61,346 nucleotides of DNA. Source: an uncultured Nitrospirota bacterium. GTDB taxonomy: Bacteria; CG2-30-53-67. Both the position numbers and the translations under genes were made by a program. Shown here piece after piece: positions 2,979 to 52,972 of the stretch. Where the stretch lies: positions 1 to 61,346 of the forward strand of contig CAMYMF010000011.1 of assembly GCA_947259355.1 (NCBI GenBank). The letters are read 5' to 3'. The notes below the pieces were generated by a model. It saw only the letters and a list, made by a program, of their open reading frames with translations, had not been told where the DNA came from and made no database searches. The first letter of the stretch is position 1. Every line of letters starts with the position of its first letter.

Positions 2979-4096
2979 TCGACCACGTAGTGCTGCTGCT
3001 CTTGTGTCAGTTCGGGATAGATGGGAAGCGCCAGGGTCTCTTGGGCGGCCCGTTCCGATTCGGGGAAGTCTCCCCGCCCATAACCGAGAGAGGCGAAACA
3101 TTCCTGTAGATGGAGCGGGATCGGATAATAGACTTCTGTGCCCACCCCCTGCTCAGCGAGGTAAGCACGGAGGCCGTCGCGATCCCGGGCGCGCAACACG
3201 TACTGATTGTAAACGTGTCGGCCTGCCGCCTCCGAACCTTGTCCAGCGGCCTTGCCATCCGTCGGCAGGGCCATGATGCAATCCCTAGCGATGCCTGCCT
3301 CCCGAAAGAGGCGATGGTAACGCTGGGCGTTTTCACGCCGTCTGCGGTGCCACTCATCGAGGTGCTTCAGTTTCTGCGACAGGACCACCGCCTGTAGGGC
3401 ATCCAGGCGGCTGTTGATCCCGACATATTGGTGCATGTACTTCGGCTGCATCCCGTGAACCCGGAGAATCCGGATGCGCTCCGCGAGCTCCCCCCGGTCG
3501 GTCACGATCATTCCGCCATCGCCGAATCCCCCCAGATTCTTGGAAGGGAAGAAGGAGAGACACCCCACATCGCCCAAGGCCCCGGCGCGCCTTCCCCCGT
3601 ATTCCGCGCCGATGGCCTGAGCGGCATCTTCGACAATCAAGAGGTTGTATTTGCGCGCAAGGGCTGAAATGGCATCCATGTCAGCGCATCGACCAAAGAG
3701 GTGTACCGGCAGAACGGCGCGCGTCCGCTCGGTGATCTTTTCCTCAAGCCCGTCCGTGTCGATATTGTAGGAGCGCGGATCAATATCGACCAGAACCGCC
3801 CTGGCCCCGAGCCGGACGATCGCGCTGACCGTGGAGAAGAAGGTGTAGGGGGTGGTGATCACCTCATCACCGGCGCCGATGCCGCCGGCCATGAGGGCGA
3901 GGAGCAGCGCATCCGACCCGGAGGCAACGCCAACGGCGTATCCGACCCCGCAGTACGAGGCGATTTCCGCCTCCAGGGTCTCTACAGGCCCCCCCAGAAT
4001 GAACTGCTGGGAGTCGAAGAGGCGAAGAATCTCGGGCAGCAACGCATCCCGGAGGGATACGTATTGCTCCTTGAGATCCAGAAGTGGGACTTTCAT
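2957..4096 (-). CDS. DegT/DnrJ/EryC1/StrS family sugar aminotransferase
   Basis: PLP-dependent aminotransferase of about 379 residues that would convert a keto nucleotide sugar to an amino sugar for surface polysaccharide. Family landmarks in order: the N-terminal M-K-V-P-L-L-D-L-K-E-Q-Y start; GVASGSDALLLALMAGGIGAGDEV (cofactor phosphate region); VEDAAQAIGAEYGGRRAG with the PLP-contacting Asp; and FFPSKNLGGFGDGG, whose Lys should form the Schiff base. RVHG and the NSRLDALQAV region follow, and the C-terminus has VYYPIPLHLQECFASLGY. Length is normal. It leads the leftward polysaccharide group, with the two Wzz genes after it and a 242-base gap upstream that should hold the promoter. The substrate cannot be told from sequence alone. 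Confidence 0.9.
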   Translation of the reverse strand: MKVPLLDLKEQYVSLRDALLPEILRLFDSQQFILGGPVETLEAEIASYCGVGYAVGVASGSDALLLALMAGGIGAGDEVITTPYTFFSTVSAIVRLGARAVLVDIDPRSYNIDTDGLEEKITERTRAVLPVHLFGRCADMDAISALARKYNLLIVEDAAQAIGAEYGGRRAGALGDVGCLSFFPSKNLGGFGDGGMIVTDRGELAERIRILRVHGMQPKYMHQYVGINSRLDALQAVVLSQKLKHLDEWHRRRRENAQRYHRLFREAGIARDCIMALPTDGKAAGQGSEAAGRHVYNQYVLRARDRDGLRAYLAEQGVGTEVYYPIPLHLQECFASLGYGRGDFPESERAAQETLALPIYPELTQEQQHYVVERIAAYY

Positions 4097-11725: not shown

Positions 11726-11755
11726 TTGACACAAACGCCTTATACTGCTTATAAT
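11726..11755 (+). promoter_or_regulatory. consensus sigma70 promoter for the riboswitch leader
   Basis: TTGACA at 11726-11731 and TATAAT at 11750-11755, both perfect matches, with an 18-base spacer. Transcription would start near 11762, directly before the GEMM-like aptamer. This agreement of promoter and aptamer position supports both calls. Confidence 0.85.
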
Positions 11756-11765
11756 TTAGAAAAAC

Positions 11766-11856
11766 GTGCGATCCAACGACAAGGGCAACCCAACAAGGGG
11801 AGCAAAGCCGCGGGCCATCAACCATCAAAGGGCATCCGGGGCTGCCGAAGTGGATA
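11766..11856 (+). promoter_or_regulatory. c-di-GMP-I (GEMM-I) type riboswitch aptamer
   Basis: The conserved GEMM-I blocks are visible in order: AAGGGCAACCC (11781-11791), a short hairpin CCC-AACAA-GGG, GCAAAGCC (11802-11809), CGGGCC (11811-11816), and the 3' block GGGGCTGCCGAAG (11838-11850). The closing P1 stem is ATCCA (11771-11775) with TGGAT (11851-11855). The class binds c-di-GMP; a variant with A at the position called G20 binds 3',3'-cGAMP. Aligned to the Vibrio Vc2 aptamer from memory, the equivalent base here is the middle G of AGGGC, which favours c-di-GMP. The GNRA tetraloop common in P2 is replaced by AACAA. The ligand has not been shown. Confidence 0.8.
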
Positions 11857-11937
11857 GGACGACCTCAAACCTATCCCGGAGCTTGTCCGACGGATAGGAA
11901 GCTCTCACGCCTATCCTGAATTCTGTCGATGGATAGG
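11852..11937 (+). repeat. three GGATAGG and two CCTATCC segments forming alternative hairpins
   Basis: GGATAGG occurs at 11852-11858, 11892-11898 and 11931-11937. CCTATCC occurs at 11870-11876 and 11910-11916. Spacing between successive GGATAGG copies is 40 and 39 bases, and the flanks are partly similar (CTC inside the loop; a T-T/C-T-G-T-C-C/G-G-A stretch between units). Register 1 pairs copies 1-2 and 3-4 (11-base loops). Register 2 leaves the first copy in riboswitch P1, pairs CCTATCC 11870 with GGATAGG 11892, and CCTATCC 11910 with GGATAGG 11931. It looks like the expression platform of the riboswitch. Confidence 0.75.
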
Positions 11938-11943
11938 CTTTTT
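11909..11943 (+). terminator. intrinsic terminator of the riboswitch
   Basis: GCCTATCC (11909-11916) pairs with GGATAGGC (11931-11938) around a 14-base loop. Five T follow at once (11939-11943). The 5' arm is the same CCTATCC that the preceding GGATAGG can capture, so the structure can be switched off by the competing hairpin. Confidence 0.75.
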
Positions 11944-11973
11944 CATCGTTATTGTTGTTGAGGGGAAAACTTT

Positions 11974-12066
11974 GTGGCAGACGCAGCTCGCAGAAAGAGG
12001 GGTACGAACACGGCCCCGACTCGGAAAGCGCGTCACGCACGGAATCGGATTTCCGTGTCGACATAG
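11974..12066 (+). CDS. possible 30-residue Arg-rich leader peptide
   Basis: A GTG at 11974 has GAGGGG 8 bases upstream and opens a 30-codon frame ending in TAG at 12064. The product would be very basic (M-A-D-A-A-R-R-K-R-G-T-N-T-A-P-T-R-K-A-R and a further RHARNR-type stretch). It is the first good ribosome site after the riboswitch terminator and lies 187 bases before the HD-GYP gene. No homologue is recognised. It may equally be chance. Confidence 0.3.
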   Translation: MADAARRKRGTNTAPTRKARHARNRISVST

Positions 12067-12085
12067 AGTTCTTCCTCCTCCTCCT

Positions 12086-12140
12086 GACAGGTCGGCGGGC
12101 TTGTCCTGCCGGCCTGTCCCACCTTCTCAGGTCTGAGAAG
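12086..12140 (+). other. two stem-loops in the HD-GYP leader
   Basis: GACAGG (12086-12091) pairs with CCTGTC (12113-12118), with further G-C pairing inside. Directly downstream CTTCTCAG-GT-CTGAGAAG (12123-12140) is a perfect 8-bp hairpin. Neither has a T-run. They may stabilise or occlude the leader RNA before the HD-GYP start. Confidence 0.4.
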
Positions 12141-12252
12141 ACCCTCTTCTCATTTCCGACAGGATTTTCTGGACCCGCACCGCCGGTTCTGCTATCTTGG
12201 GACCCGCAGATTCCACCCCCCATTCGCCCGATGGCACTAGCAGGTTATTCGA

Positions 12253-12915
12253 ATGCCGGCACGTAGGACATCTCAACACAAGCGCTCGGCCCGGATTTTG
12301 ATGGGTCTTCTGGAAGCCAAAGACCAGGCCACGGCGGAGCATTCCCGCAACGTGGCGCGACTTGCCCTCCAACTGGGCGCATCCTGCGGGCTCAAGAAGA
12401 CGGAGCTGGCAGAGCTGGAGCTGGGTGCACTGTTGCATGATGCAGACAAACTGAACGTTCCCGATGATATTTTTGATAAACTACGACGAGGAGCGCCGCT
12501 AAGCGAGGAGGATCTGCGCATCCTCCGCGAGCATGCCTCACTGGAAGGGGAGATTCCTTTCGTAAAGGAAATGCCACACGTGGTGCGGGACTGCCAACAG
12601 CTCCACCACGAAAACTACAATGGCTCCGGCACGCCCCATGGATTGAAGGAAGACCAGATCCCGCTGTCCGTCCGTATCGTACAGGTGGCCGACACCTTCG
12701 ATGCCCTAACGCTGAACCTGCCGGGACGGCGCGGCCAATCAAGACACGAAGCGCTCCTGAGCCTCAAGGACTATGCCGGTACGATACTGGACCCCCACCT
12801 GGTCGCGCAATTCATCGAGTTGATCCGGTCCCCGTCGGCTTACCCAGAGCCCCCTGAGCGCTCTTCAAAACAGGCGGCCCGACTCCCAAGACAGGGCGGC
12901 CATAAAGAGCCCTAA
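12253..12915 (+). CDS. HD-GYP-type phosphodiesterase domain protein
   Basis: 220-residue stand-alone HD-GYP-like domain, a family that hydrolyses c-di-GMP or 3',3'-cGAMP. Visible ligand positions: EHSRNVARLAL (first His), LLHDADKLNVPDDIFDK (the HD-x-x-K set), LREHASLEGE, HHENYNGSGTPHGL (HH pair) and VADTFDALT (Asp). The signature differs from the usual HHExxDGxGYPxGL: D is N and GYP is GTP. HDIGK reads HDADK. Metal ligands are kept, so catalysis remains possible. The C-terminal 30 residues are proline- and basic-rich. An in-frame TAG at 12238 fixes ATG 12253 as the first possible ATG; its ribosome site is weak. It lies downstream of a c-di-GMP-type riboswitch and terminator, which implies feedback control by a cyclic dinucleotide. 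Confidence 0.85.
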   Translation: MPARRTSQHKRSARILMGLLEAKDQATAEHSRNVARLALQLGASCGLKKTELAELELGALLHDADKLNVPDDIFDKLRRGAPLSEEDLRILREHASLEGEIPFVKEMPHVVRDCQQLHHENYNGSGTPHGLKEDQIPLSVRIVQVADTFDALTLNLPGRRGQSRHEALLSLKDYAGTILDPHLVAQFIELIRSPSAYPEPPERSSKQAARLPRQGGHKEP

Positions 12916-49199: not shown

Positions 49200-49211
49200 C
49201 GCCGGCGCACC

Positions 49212-50474
49212 TCAAGCGTGACGCAGAAAATCAGGCACCTCCTCCGCCGCAATCAGCTCGGCCAGCGTCTCCCGCCTGCGGATCACATAGTAGCGATCGT
49301 CCGAGACCAGCACCTCCGGCGCCCGGGGCCGCGTATTGTAATTGGACGCCATGGCAAAACCGTAGGCCCCCACGGACATGACGGCCACCAGGTCTCCCTT
49401 TTCATAGGGCTGGATCTCGCGGTCCTGTGCGAGGAAATCTCCGGACTCGCAAATGGGCCCCACCACGTCGGCCGTCACCATCTCCGTGATCCGCCGCCGT
49501 ACCGCTTGGAGCCGGTGATAGGCCTGGTAGAGACTCGGGCGCATGAGATCATTCATGCCGGCATCGACGATCACAAATTTCTTTCCCAGGTTCTCTTTCG
49601 TATAAAGAACCCGGGTCACCATGATCCCGGCGTTGCCCACAATCACCCGGCCCGGTTCCAGAATCAGAGTACATCCGAGCCCCTCGGTGTTCTCGATCAA
49701 CTCCCGCCCGTACTTCGTCGGGTGGGGTGGCTCCTCTTCATCATAGGTGATGCCAAGCCCGCCCCCCAAATCGAGGTATTGTATCTCAAAACCATCGTCT
49801 CTGAGCTGTGCGATGAGATCCTTGACGCGAGCCAGGGCGTCGACAAAGGGTGCAATTTCAGTCAGCTGCGATCCGATGTGGCAGTCCACACCGACGGGTG
49901 TGACATGGCGCAGGCTTCGCGCGGTGCGGTAGGCCGCCAACGCCTCCACCAGGGGAATGCCGAACTTGTTCTGTTTCAGTCCCGTCGAAATGTAGGGATG
50001 CGTCTTGGGGTCCACATCCGGGTTCACCCGAAACGCAATGGACGCGGTCTTCCCTGCAGCGGCCGCCACCGAATCGATCTCGTGAAGCTCCTGCAGCGAC
50101 TCCACATTGAACATCAGGATCCCCGCCACCAGGGCTTCGCGGATTTCCTCCCGGGTCTTGCCCACGCCCGAGAAGACCATTTTTTTCGGATCGCCCCCAG
50201 CTTTGAGCGCGCGAAAGAGCTCACCGCCGGAGACAATGTCGAAACCGCTGCCCAGGCGCGCGAACTGCGACAGAATGGCCAGGTTGGCGTTGGCCTTCAC
50301 CGAGTAGCAGATCAGGTGGTCCGTCGTCTTCAGGGCGTCTTCAAAGGCCCGGTAGTGACGCTGGAGCGTGGCGACACTGTAAAGGTAGAACGGGGTGCCC
50401 ACTGCGTCTGCAATCTTCTCGATGGAGACGTCTTCACAGTAGAGCTCATCGCCCCGGTACTTGAAATGATGCAT
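49212..50474 (-). CDS. lysA: diaminopimelate decarboxylase
   Basis: 420 residues, PLP enzyme that makes lysine from meso-DAP. FYLYSVATLQRHYRAFEDAL leads to ICYSVKANANLAILSQFARLGSGFDIVSGGEL, with the Schiff-base Lys in YSVKAN. HIGSQLTEIAPFVDAL, LDLGGGLGITYDEEEPPHP, LILEPGRVIVGNAGIMVTRVLY, GPICESGDFLAQDREI (active-site C-E-S) and VGAYGFAMASNYNTRPRAPEVL follow. It is complete. It lies 40 bases downstream of the lipoprotein gene. Confidence 0.96.
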   Translation of the reverse strand: MHHFKYRGDELYCEDVSIEKIADAVGTPFYLYSVATLQRHYRAFEDALKTTDHLICYSVKANANLAILSQFARLGSGFDIVSGGELFRALKAGGDPKKMVFSGVGKTREEIREALVAGILMFNVESLQELHEIDSVAAAAGKTASIAFRVNPDVDPKTHPYISTGLKQNKFGIPLVEALAAYRTARSLRHVTPVGVDCHIGSQLTEIAPFVDALARVKDLIAQLRDDGFEIQYLDLGGGLGITYDEEEPPHPTKYGRELIENTEGLGCTLILEPGRVIVGNAGIMVTRVLYTKENLGKKFVIVDAGMNDLMRPSLYQAYHRLQAVRRRITEMVTADVVGPICESGDFLAQDREIQPYEKGDLVAVMSVGAYGFAMASNYNTRPRAPEVLVSDDRYYVIRRRETLAELIAAEEVPDFLRHA

Positions 50475-50514: not shown

Positions 50515-51543
50515 TCAACGGCCGTGGGCAATCATCCGTACCGCTCGGGATGGGGCGCTCTCATTGGGTGTCGGCGCCGTGTCGAGGGCCGTGATATGGT
50601 AGTGGTACACAACCCCATCCCGGATCTCGCCGTCGGCAAACAGGCTCACCGGCTGGGCCACTTCGCCGATAACCCTCGGAACGCCTCGGGCCCCTTCACG
50701 CCGGTATATCCGATACCCCCTAAGATCGTCCTCCCGGTTCTCCTCCCAGACCAGGCGGATGAAACCCGGTCCTGGAATGGCCTCCAGACCCTGCGGCGGG
50801 GCCGGCGGGATCCGGTCGAGGGGTGTGACGACCACCGCACGCCCCGCGTCGCTCTCCACCCAGGGCGCTTCGATCGACCGGGTGCTGCGCATTGTATAGA
50901 CATACGCGACGCCGTTTTGCAACCCGCGATCGACATACTCAGGGCCGGTCACAGGACGGCGGTTAACCGGATAGAGCGGGTCGGAGGCCCCCTGCGCTTT
51001 GCGATAGATGTTGTAGCGCAAACGAACCGCCGGATCATCGGCCACCGGCCAGCGCAGGGTCACGGCACGATCTTGCCCCTCGGCGGCCGGTGCGGGCGGC
51101 GGGGGGGGCGCAGCCAACCAGCGAATGGTGATGGCCCGGGATTCGTGCCCGGCATATCCTGCTTTCCCGATGGGAACCACCACGTAGCGATAGGTCTTAC
51201 CCGCCCAGGCGGAATCGACGGCTGTGCGCAGAATGTAGCGGTTTGCGGCCGTCGGCGCCGCACGCTCTGCCCCCGGATCGAGGGCAGCGATCTCTTCGAA
51301 CTCGGGGCACCGGCATTCGTTGCGCAACCGGACCGCCGGGTCTTCCCGAAATACTTTGTAGGCGGCGATCTCAGCGTGCGCTTTCTCGTCGGGGGCCTCC
51401 CAGGTCAACAGGAACTCGGCGCCCCGCACAAAGGCGTCCACCCGCGACACAGCCGCGGGCAGTTGAACGTCCGGCGGCATCACGGGTGTTTTCACCCCGC
51501 AACCCCCCGCCAGCAGGAGTAGGCAGCCCGCACCCATGAGCAC
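50515..51543 (-). CDS. lipoprotein with fibronectin type III-like repeats
   Basis: About 342 residues from GTG 51543 (AGGGG 7 bases upstream) or ATG 51537. The signal is M-G-A-G-C-L-L-L-L-A-G-G-C, so it should be a lipid-anchored envelope protein. Two or three beta-sandwich (FN3-like) units can be seen from repeated L-x-W patterns and Y-x-I/V-x-R strands: FLLTWEAPDEKAHAEIAAYKVFR, VTLRWPVADDPAVRLRYNIYRK and IRLVWEENREDDLRGYRIYRR. Each has a later Y-x-Y strand. A Pro-rich linker (APPPPPAPA) separates units 1 and 2. The function is unknown. It lies 10 bases after the argH stop and before lysA, so it belongs to the same run. Confidence 0.8.
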   Translation of the reverse strand: MLMGAGCLLLLAGGCGVKTPVMPPDVQLPAAVSRVDAFVRGAEFLLTWEAPDEKAHAEIAAYKVFREDPAVRLRNECRCPEFEEIAALDPGAERAAPTAANRYILRTAVDSAWAGKTYRYVVVPIGKAGYAGHESRAITIRWLAAPPPPPAPAAEGQDRAVTLRWPVADDPAVRLRYNIYRKAQGASDPLYPVNRRPVTGPEYVDRGLQNGVAYVYTMRSTRSIEAPWVESDAGRAVVVTPLDRIPPAPPQGLEAIPGPGFIRLVWEENREDDLRGYRIYRREGARGVPRVIGEVAQPVSLFADGEIRDGVVYHYHITALDTAPTPNESAPSRAVRMIAHGR

Positions 51544-51553
51544 CCGGACGCCC

Positions 51554-52972
51554 CTAACGGCCTTTCGGCTTGGCGGTCCGCTTTTCCCTCGATGGCCGGG
51601 TGAGGCTCCGCTCCATCTCTCGCAGCCGTCTGCGGACACGAGACGGTGCTGTCCCGCCTGGGATATTCCGGGCCGAAACGGATCGCCTGGGGTCGATGAC
51701 TTCATACACATCCTCGTCAATGTCCGGATGAAAGCCTTGGAACTCGTCCAGACGGACCGTCGGGAGATCCCGTCCCGATTCAATGCAGAACCGCACGACG
51801 GCGCCCGTCACTTCGTGCGCCCGACGAAAGGGAAGCCCCTTGCGTACCAGGTAGTCCGCAAAATCGGTGGCCGTGGAGAAGCCCTTGGCCGCCACAGCCT
51901 CCATCTGCTCGGCGCGCACGGTCAGACCCTGCAGCATCCCCGTAAAAACCGTGAGCGATCCCTTCAGCGTGTCCACGGCATCGAACAGGGGCTCCTTGTC
52001 CTCTTGGAGGTCCCGGTTGTACGCCAGGGGCAGCCCCTTCAGCGTCGTCAACAGGGCCATGAGGTGCCCATAGACCCGCCCCGTCTTGCCCCGTATCAAT
52101 TCGGGGACATCGGGATTCTTCTTTTGCGGCATGATACTGCTGCCGGTGCAGTACGCGTCCCCGATCTCCACGAATGAGAAGGGCTCACTCGTCCAGAGAA
52201 TCAGCTCTTCGCAAAACCGGGACAGATGCATCATGATCAGCGATGCCGCGGCGAGGAACTCAATGAGGTAGTCCCGGTCGCTGACGGCATCCATGCTGTT
52301 CTGCGTCACCGCCTGAAAGCCCAATGCTTCGGCCACATAGCGCCGGTCGATCTCGAAGCTGGTCCCCGACAGCGCGCCCGAGCCGAGGGGCATCCGATTG
52401 ACCCGCCGGGCACAGTCCGAGAGCCGCTCCCGGTCCCGGGCAAACATCTCGCAATAGGCCAACAGGTGGTGCGCAAAAGGAACAGGCTGGGCGATCTGCA
52501 GATGGGTGAAGCCCGGCATGATGACATCCACTTCGTCCCGTGCCTTTCGCACGAGCGCGAGCATCAGATCCCGCAAGAGGTTGTCGACGGTATCTATCTC
52601 ATGGCGCAGGTAGAGACGCGTATCGAGGGCCACCTGATCGTTGCGGCTCCGAGCCGTATGAAGCTTCCCGCCCACCGTGCCGATCTTTTCGATGAGCCGC
52701 CGCTCGATGTTCATGTGAATGTCTTCATACTCGGGCCGGAAAGGAAAAGTCCCGTTGGCGATCTCCCTGCCGATAGCGCGAAGGCCCCGGACGATCTTAT
52801 CCGCGTCCGCCGCGGAGATGATATTCTGCCGGGCCAGCATCCTGCAGTGTGCGATGCTTCCGTCGATATCAAAGGGGGCGAGGCGCCGGTCAAAATGAAC
52901 GGAGGCCGTGAAGGCCTCGACCGACGCGTCCGTCTCCTTGGCAAACCGCCCGCCCCAGGGCTTCTTCGTCAC
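51554..52972 (-). CDS. argH: argininosuccinate lyase
   Basis: 472 residues from GTG 52972, with GGAGGA 8 bases upstream. It makes arginine and fumarate. The start K-K-P-W-G-G-R-F is typical. Next are [60 protein letters not shown] (catalytic region) and [25 protein letters not shown] (catalytic T-H). Then come [27 protein letters not shown] (G-S-S-x-M-P-x-K-x-N signature loop) and [21 protein letters not shown]. The Lys/Arg-rich C-terminal tail is slightly long. A dispersed repeat sits directly upstream of the ribosome site. Confidence 0.96.

Follow-up and report, generated by a model that had tools for sequence, protein, structure and literature searches.

The window, that is, the whole stretch of 61,346 nucleotides that was analysed, carries on its forward strand a riboswitch leader followed by a gene for an HD-GYP-type protein. 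Upstream of the leader lies a sigma-70-type promoter (11726-11755, +), with hexamers TTGACA and TATAAT separated by 18 nt, agreeing with the consensus at 12 of 12 positions. The core of a class I c-di-GMP aptamer follows (11775-11850, +); the 5' strand of its P1 helix, ATCCA (11771-11775, +), has the partner TGGAT at 11851-11855. Next come a series of alternating strands and an intrinsic terminator, and then a standalone HD-GYP-type phosphodiesterase gene of 220 aa (12253-12915, +), identified by Pfam HD_5 (E 2.7e-29) and HD (E 7.5e-13). Between leader and gene no other recognised plus-strand gene was found, the sole frame being one of 30 codons (11974-12066, +). The aptamer match, the HD_5/HD gene and this strand survey bear out the first-pass annotation, which had placed a cyclic-dinucleotide riboswitch ahead of an HD-GYP gene with no recognised gene between them.

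The aptamer and the HD-GYP-type protein

In a relaxed-filter cmscan of a 611-base stretch, the aptamer core matched RF03167 (c-di-GMP-I-GGC) with 38.2 bits and E 2e-7, and the genome-wide scan with the same model again gave 38.2 bits. This score is beneath the RF03167 gathering score of 59, and the default-threshold Rfam scan of the whole window missed the aptamer, reporting a tRNA alone. The general model RF01051 (c-di-GMP-I) gave 29.5 bits in a genome-wide scan, also under its gathering score. Eight class I matches were found in the genome of the window (G000), this aptamer among them, and its score is on a par with those of the orthologous leaders in related genomes (27.4 to 38.9 bits); therefore, it is not regarded as a chance match.

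The architecture of the aptamer is of the GGC type. According to the RF03167 alignment, G, A and C stand at the positions equivalent to 20, 47 and 92 of Vc2, as in canonical c-di-GMP aptamers of the GEMM-I class, and the core pairs G14-C93 and G21-C46 are present. Judging from the model consensus, GGC in the name of RF03167 probably denotes positions 20, 47 and 92. The variant is defined by G at position 47 (consensus GCGAAGCC), and the window reads GCAAAGCC; because its position 47 is A, not G, the aptamer was not filed as a GGC-specificity variant.

The GEMM-Ib switches selective for cGAMP are marked by A20, and an A20G change shifts their selectivity to c-di-GMP (PMC6456294). The window has G at this position, just as the first-pass annotation had read it. 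That annotation had nevertheless kept cGAMP in play with the argument that deltaproteobacteria use both messengers, which is not supported by a survey of GGDEF motifs: all 14 readable loci (13 distinct domains, with 6 unreadable loci left out) carry the normal Asp, and the Hypr Ser occurs in none. As the triad G20/A47/C92 is canonical and every readable GGDEF motif carries Asp, the sequences favour c-di-GMP as the ligand. Position 20 affects selectivity without being a strict filter (PMC9262584), and GEMM-Ib cGAMP switches occur in Geobacter (PMC6456294), but in view of the triad and the uniform Asp it is very improbable that the window aptamer binds 3',3'-cGAMP instead.

The protein was compared with PmGH, with which it shares seven of eight metal ligands (H30, H62, D63, H94, H118, H119 and D147); its D24, K66 and D150 are the equivalents of PmGH D183, K225 and D308. 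Substitutions were seen at Glu185 (Ala26), the GYP Tyr285 (Thr127), Arg314, a guanine contact (Leu156), and Lys317 (Arg159). The HD_5/HD domain, the metal ligands and the catalytic Lys and Asp of an HD-GYP enzyme are therefore all found, but the tripeptide with Tyr is not, being GTP in the window and in G001 and GVP in G005. In PmGH, replacement of Y285, R314 or K317 by Ala little reduced activity, whereas Bd1817, which has no GYP Tyr, is inactive (PMC4159591). Since the Tyr is missing, and one Tyr-less protein is inactive while the other is active, the label HD-GYP-type is used here in place of certain active member. The degrading enzyme claimed in the first-pass annotation thus holds as to the catalytic and most metal-binding residues, but not as to the GYP Tyr; catalytic activity is likely. 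Among proteins of solved structure, the best sequence relative is the 3'3'-cGAMP-specific phosphodiesterase 3 (PDB 5z7c). Orthologs were found by protein search of 60 relatives only in G001 (84%) and G005 (61%), and phage and plasmid searches with the protein returned only relatives below 60% identity. Between G000 and G001 the gene shows 63 synonymous and 29 non-synonymous codon changes, indicating purifying selection.

The expression platform

Five alternating strands follow the aptamer. Strand 1 (GGATAGG, 11852-11858, +) shares bases with the 3' strand of P1 and at the same time serves as the first antiterminator strand. Strand 2 (CCTATCC, 11870-11876, +) can pair with strand 1 in the ON state or with strand 3 (GGATAGG, 11892-11898, +) in the OFF state. 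Strand 4 (CCTATCC, 11910-11916, +) can pair with strand 3 in the ON state or, forming the terminator, with strand 5 (GGATAGG followed by C and T5, 11931-11943, +; inverted repeat I3), which provides the 3' arm and the U-tract. The terminator hairpin at 11909-11938 has a folding energy of -13.5 kcal/mol (z -2.8); a further terminator call at 11927-11948 was set aside as an alternative pairing within it.

Only three strands (GGATAGG/CCTATCC/GGATAGG), with a U-tract and the same P1 overlap, are present in the leaders of G002, G004 and G005, and the G003 leader has this layout near-exactly, with one extra A in strand 1. The additional strand pair of the window, absent from these relatives, arose from a 40-nt tandem duplication, seen as direct repeat D1 (36 nt at 72% identity, spacing 40), from which strand 3 derives. 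Exclusive antiterminator and terminator pairings, an overlap with P1 and a U-tract, as expected of an OFF riboswitch, are found in the sequence and folds of the window, and this layout is kept in G002-G005. Because the strand closing P1 doubles as the first antiterminator strand, ligand binding is predicted to lead to termination. With five strands the number remains odd, hence the OFF logic would be kept.

Constrained folds of the ON and OFF states are nearly isoenergetic (-62.7 and -62.0 kcal/mol), so ligand binding could tip the balance. The lowest-energy fold is another ON-type structure, with strands 1:4 and 2:3 paired (-65.9 kcal/mol), so that efficient termination is not what equilibrium folding by itself would predict. 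The modelled energies are consistent with a switch, without amounting to proof of one. The two platform copies differ at 10 positions, none of which is among the 14 positions of the arms (by hand calculation, hypergeometric p is 0.0025; it is about 0.03 if one arm is assumed, to allow for the exact seed of the repeat finder). Arms left intact after the duplication speak for a function still kept in the window.

The leader in related genomes

Sixty relatives were searched, and six of the genomes covered are of the family, so that the reading of polarity and of history is based on a small number of sequences. The leader DNA found matches in the sister genome G001, which is of the same genus, and in G002-G005. 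In G002, G004 and G005, which are of the same family, the leader stands immediately 5' of a gene for a type III sulfide:quinone oxidoreductase (SQR), identified above cut-off by NCBIfam NF049943 (E 2e-167 for the G005 protein and 3.8e-167 for the G002 protein); the G002 and G004 proteins share 93% identity. The gene order in G005 is leader, SQR, HD-GYP, Rrf2 regulator and NifS-like cysteine desulfurase, and G002 and G004 are without the HD-GYP gene. No SQR ortholog was found in G000 and G001 (best E 1.6e-4).

Directly 3' of the SQR stop codon of G005 is a strong hairpin, GACAGGCCGGCAGG...TTGCCGGCCTGTC, and HD-GYP starts about 130 nt past the stop. The homologue in the window is a 14-bp hairpin at 12086-12118 (+; -27.6 kcal/mol, z -5.0), which has no U-tract, is 97% identical in G001, and would be the former 3' hairpin of a lost SQR gene. 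A dispersed repeat was considered for this hairpin and rejected, the exact pattern occurring once in G000 and once in G001. A 15-nt inverted repeat (11718-11732/12055-12069) was likewise tried as element ends; its 5' arm is not retained in G001 and it was treated as chance. In G003 the leader and the SQR hairpin remain, and SQR and HD-GYP are both absent.

The aptamer match, the alternative strands, the SQR-linked leader of the relatives, the absence of SQR from the genus and the residual hairpin are read from the sequence. In the simplest account of them, the window leader originally belonged to an SQR gene, and this gene was lost in the genus of the window between leader and hairpin. The loss would have left HD-GYP as the next full-length gene after the leader.

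The leader of G001 has had a different fate. P1 is retained in G002-G005, but in G001 two P1 pairs as well as core pairs are broken, and the score is 12.7 bits against 38.2 in the window. As HD-GYP is kept there despite this decay, the switch appears dispensable for HD-GYP in the sister species. Both promoter hexamers of the leader are still perfect and identical to those of the window, so leader read-through may matter in both species. For the window itself, the retained aptamer score, which is on a par with those of leaders that still serve SQR, and the retained arms argue for continuing function.

Several other features of the relatives were seen. The genomes G002, G004 and G005 have the OFF-type c-di-GMP leader before SQR and then Rrf2 and NifS-like genes, a connection of c-di-GMP with sulfide for which no paper linking a c-di-GMP riboswitch with sulfide:quinone oxidoreductase was found in a limited full-text literature search. 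G004 has a very long near-perfect hairpin after SQR (3662-3839), with a shorter relative in G002. In G003 (contig C16), the leader and hairpin are now followed by a small antitoxin-like gene and another short frame, which together look like a toxin-antitoxin pair.

Possible control of the HD-GYP-type gene, and known systems

Taken together, it is probable that the window contains a class I OFF leader that once served SQR, that SQR was deleted and HD-GYP came to be next, and that any feedback is positive and partial. The ligand, the switching direction, read-through into HD-GYP and enzyme activity are what we infer in this account. In the absence of ligand, strands 1 and 2 would pair, as would strands 3 and 4, blocking the strand 5 terminator and permitting read-through. 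With c-di-GMP bound, P1 would hold strand 1, leaving strand 2 to pair with 3 and strand 4 with 5, and transcription would stop at 11939-11943. The read-through RNA would pass the hairpin without U-tract and then reach HD-GYP, which probably has a promoter of its own as well. Low c-di-GMP would then give more of the degrading enzyme, a feedback both positive and partial.

Judged from the sequence, riboswitch control of HD-GYP in the window has slightly less than an even chance; if real, it is positive feedback. The first-pass annotation had offered both a positive and a homeostatic loop, between which the predicted OFF platform selects the former. A feedback loop is possible, though probably as a remnant and not as a circuit by design. 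A more specific version, which is held only tentatively and is on balance doubtful, is rewiring by deletion, whereby the OFF leader of SQR passed to a c-di-GMP-degrading enzyme and so gave positive feedback, the platform having grown in this species by tandem duplication into a five-strand, parity-preserving 'domino' in which ligand would still mean termination.

The same SQR ancestry would also be compatible with a stranded relic, HD-GYP being independent of the riboswitch and transcribed from its own promoter. A promoter-like element, TGGACC-17-TATCTT with an extended TGC before the second hexamer, does lie ahead of HD-GYP (12170-12198, +); it was missed by the promoter scan and agrees with the consensus at 8 of 12 positions. 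All three genomes with HD-GYP (G000, G001 and G005) share CTGGAC and, 17-18 nt after the first hexamer, TG.TAT.TT, the spacers in G001 and G005 being 17 and 18, so that the element is weak but conserved. It can further be seen that the SQR 3' hairpin separates leader and gene, that the G001 aptamer decayed while HD-GYP kept its excess of synonymous changes, and that G003 retains the leader with neither SQR nor HD-GYP. However, the leader promoter is of perfect consensus in both G000 and G001, the window aptamer is at full score with platform arms intact after the duplication, and leader, hairpin and HD-GYP are still linked though the neighbouring genes differ from those of G003 and G005. The hairpin, having no U-tract, need not stop RNA polymerase. 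A relic is thus a serious possibility, though one we hold to be somewhat short of probable.

A designed feedback circuit, in which HD-GYP would be controlled mainly by a riboswitch selected for this role, is unlikely. The adjacency, the lack of a recognised gene between, and the intact aptamer and platform fit such a circuit, as does a second c-di-GMP-I-type leader of the genome, placed 132 nt before a REC-GAF-HD-GYP gene and conserved in G001; but the SQR-linked ancestry, the intervening hairpin, the promoter-like element and the decayed G001 leader all speak against it. It is still less likely that HD-GYP is a bystander and that the product of the leader is a terminated small RNA or a peptide of the 30-codon frame: in three genomes the leader has outlasted the gene that it used to serve, and the frame is as long in G000 as in G001, with a ribosome-binding-like start region (GTG after GAGGGG) 96% identical, but no trans-acting RNA target was identified, and 16 non-synonymous against 2 synonymous codon changes, with no third-position excess, rule out a conserved small protein.

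Other class I aptamers of the genome were also inspected. The second leader just mentioned, on contig C43 (45000-55000), has its aptamer at 49203-49283, is c-di-GMP-I-UAU-like (RF01051 43.3 bits, above cut-off; RF03168 51.1 bits), and is a cleaner example of a riboswitch and HD-GYP pair than that of the window. Its position-20 equivalent is A in G000 and G in G001, position 92 being U in both; going by these residues, ligand choice may differ between the orthologs. The REC-GGDEF gene after this HD-GYP gene is split in two frames (51398-51664 and 51694-51891), either through a frameshift or through a mistake in the assembly. Long P3 inserts are seen in two similar class I aptamers (C4:7647 and C19:77732), which precede genes for fn3/Ig-like-domain proteins, and a terminator-like hairpin with a T-run just upstream of each hints at tandem leaders. 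Others, on contigs C10 and C6, stand ahead of a gene for cytochrome c552, one for a branched-chain-type periplasmic binding protein, and a multihaem-cytochrome-like frame.

These genomes make a riboswitch that outlives its target traceable: intact with the target in G002, G004 and G005, intact without it in G003 and the window, and decayed without it in G001. Through the SQR leaders, c-di-GMP is linked to the oxidation of sulfide in a lineage without cultured members. If the window leader controls HD-GYP, no more than a deletion was needed to create a positive-feedback circuit. With the five-strand platform it can also be tested directly whether switch polarity is kept as long as the number of alternating strands is odd.

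Compared with class I aptamers of RF01051 (GEMM-I), the window shares the conserved core, the secondary structure and G20/A47/C92, but it is matched best by the GGC variant model RF03167 despite its canonical A47, and lies beneath both gathering scores. As in the OFF riboswitch Cd1 of Clostridioides difficile (PMC9262584), the aptamer-closing strand doubles as an antiterminator strand and ligand is predicted to favour the terminator; the window differs in its five alternating strands, and the three-strand version of the relatives is closer to Cd1. The protein has in common with PmGH (PDB 4mcw, PMC4159591) and PDB 5z7c the seven metal ligands and the equivalents of D183, K225 and D308, but is without an N-terminal sensor domain. 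A turnover gene for c-di-GMP that follows a c-di-GMP riboswitch has been described as rare (PMC6366702). According to PMC3971182, which cites Sudarsan 2008, GEMM leaders before diguanylate cyclase and phosphodiesterase genes are known, and therefore the circuit idea is not new in kind. The window shares with those leaders the position of a c-di-GMP riboswitch upstream of a turnover gene; it differs from them in that its pairing would have arisen by loss of SQR, and in the hairpin and second promoter-like element that intervene.
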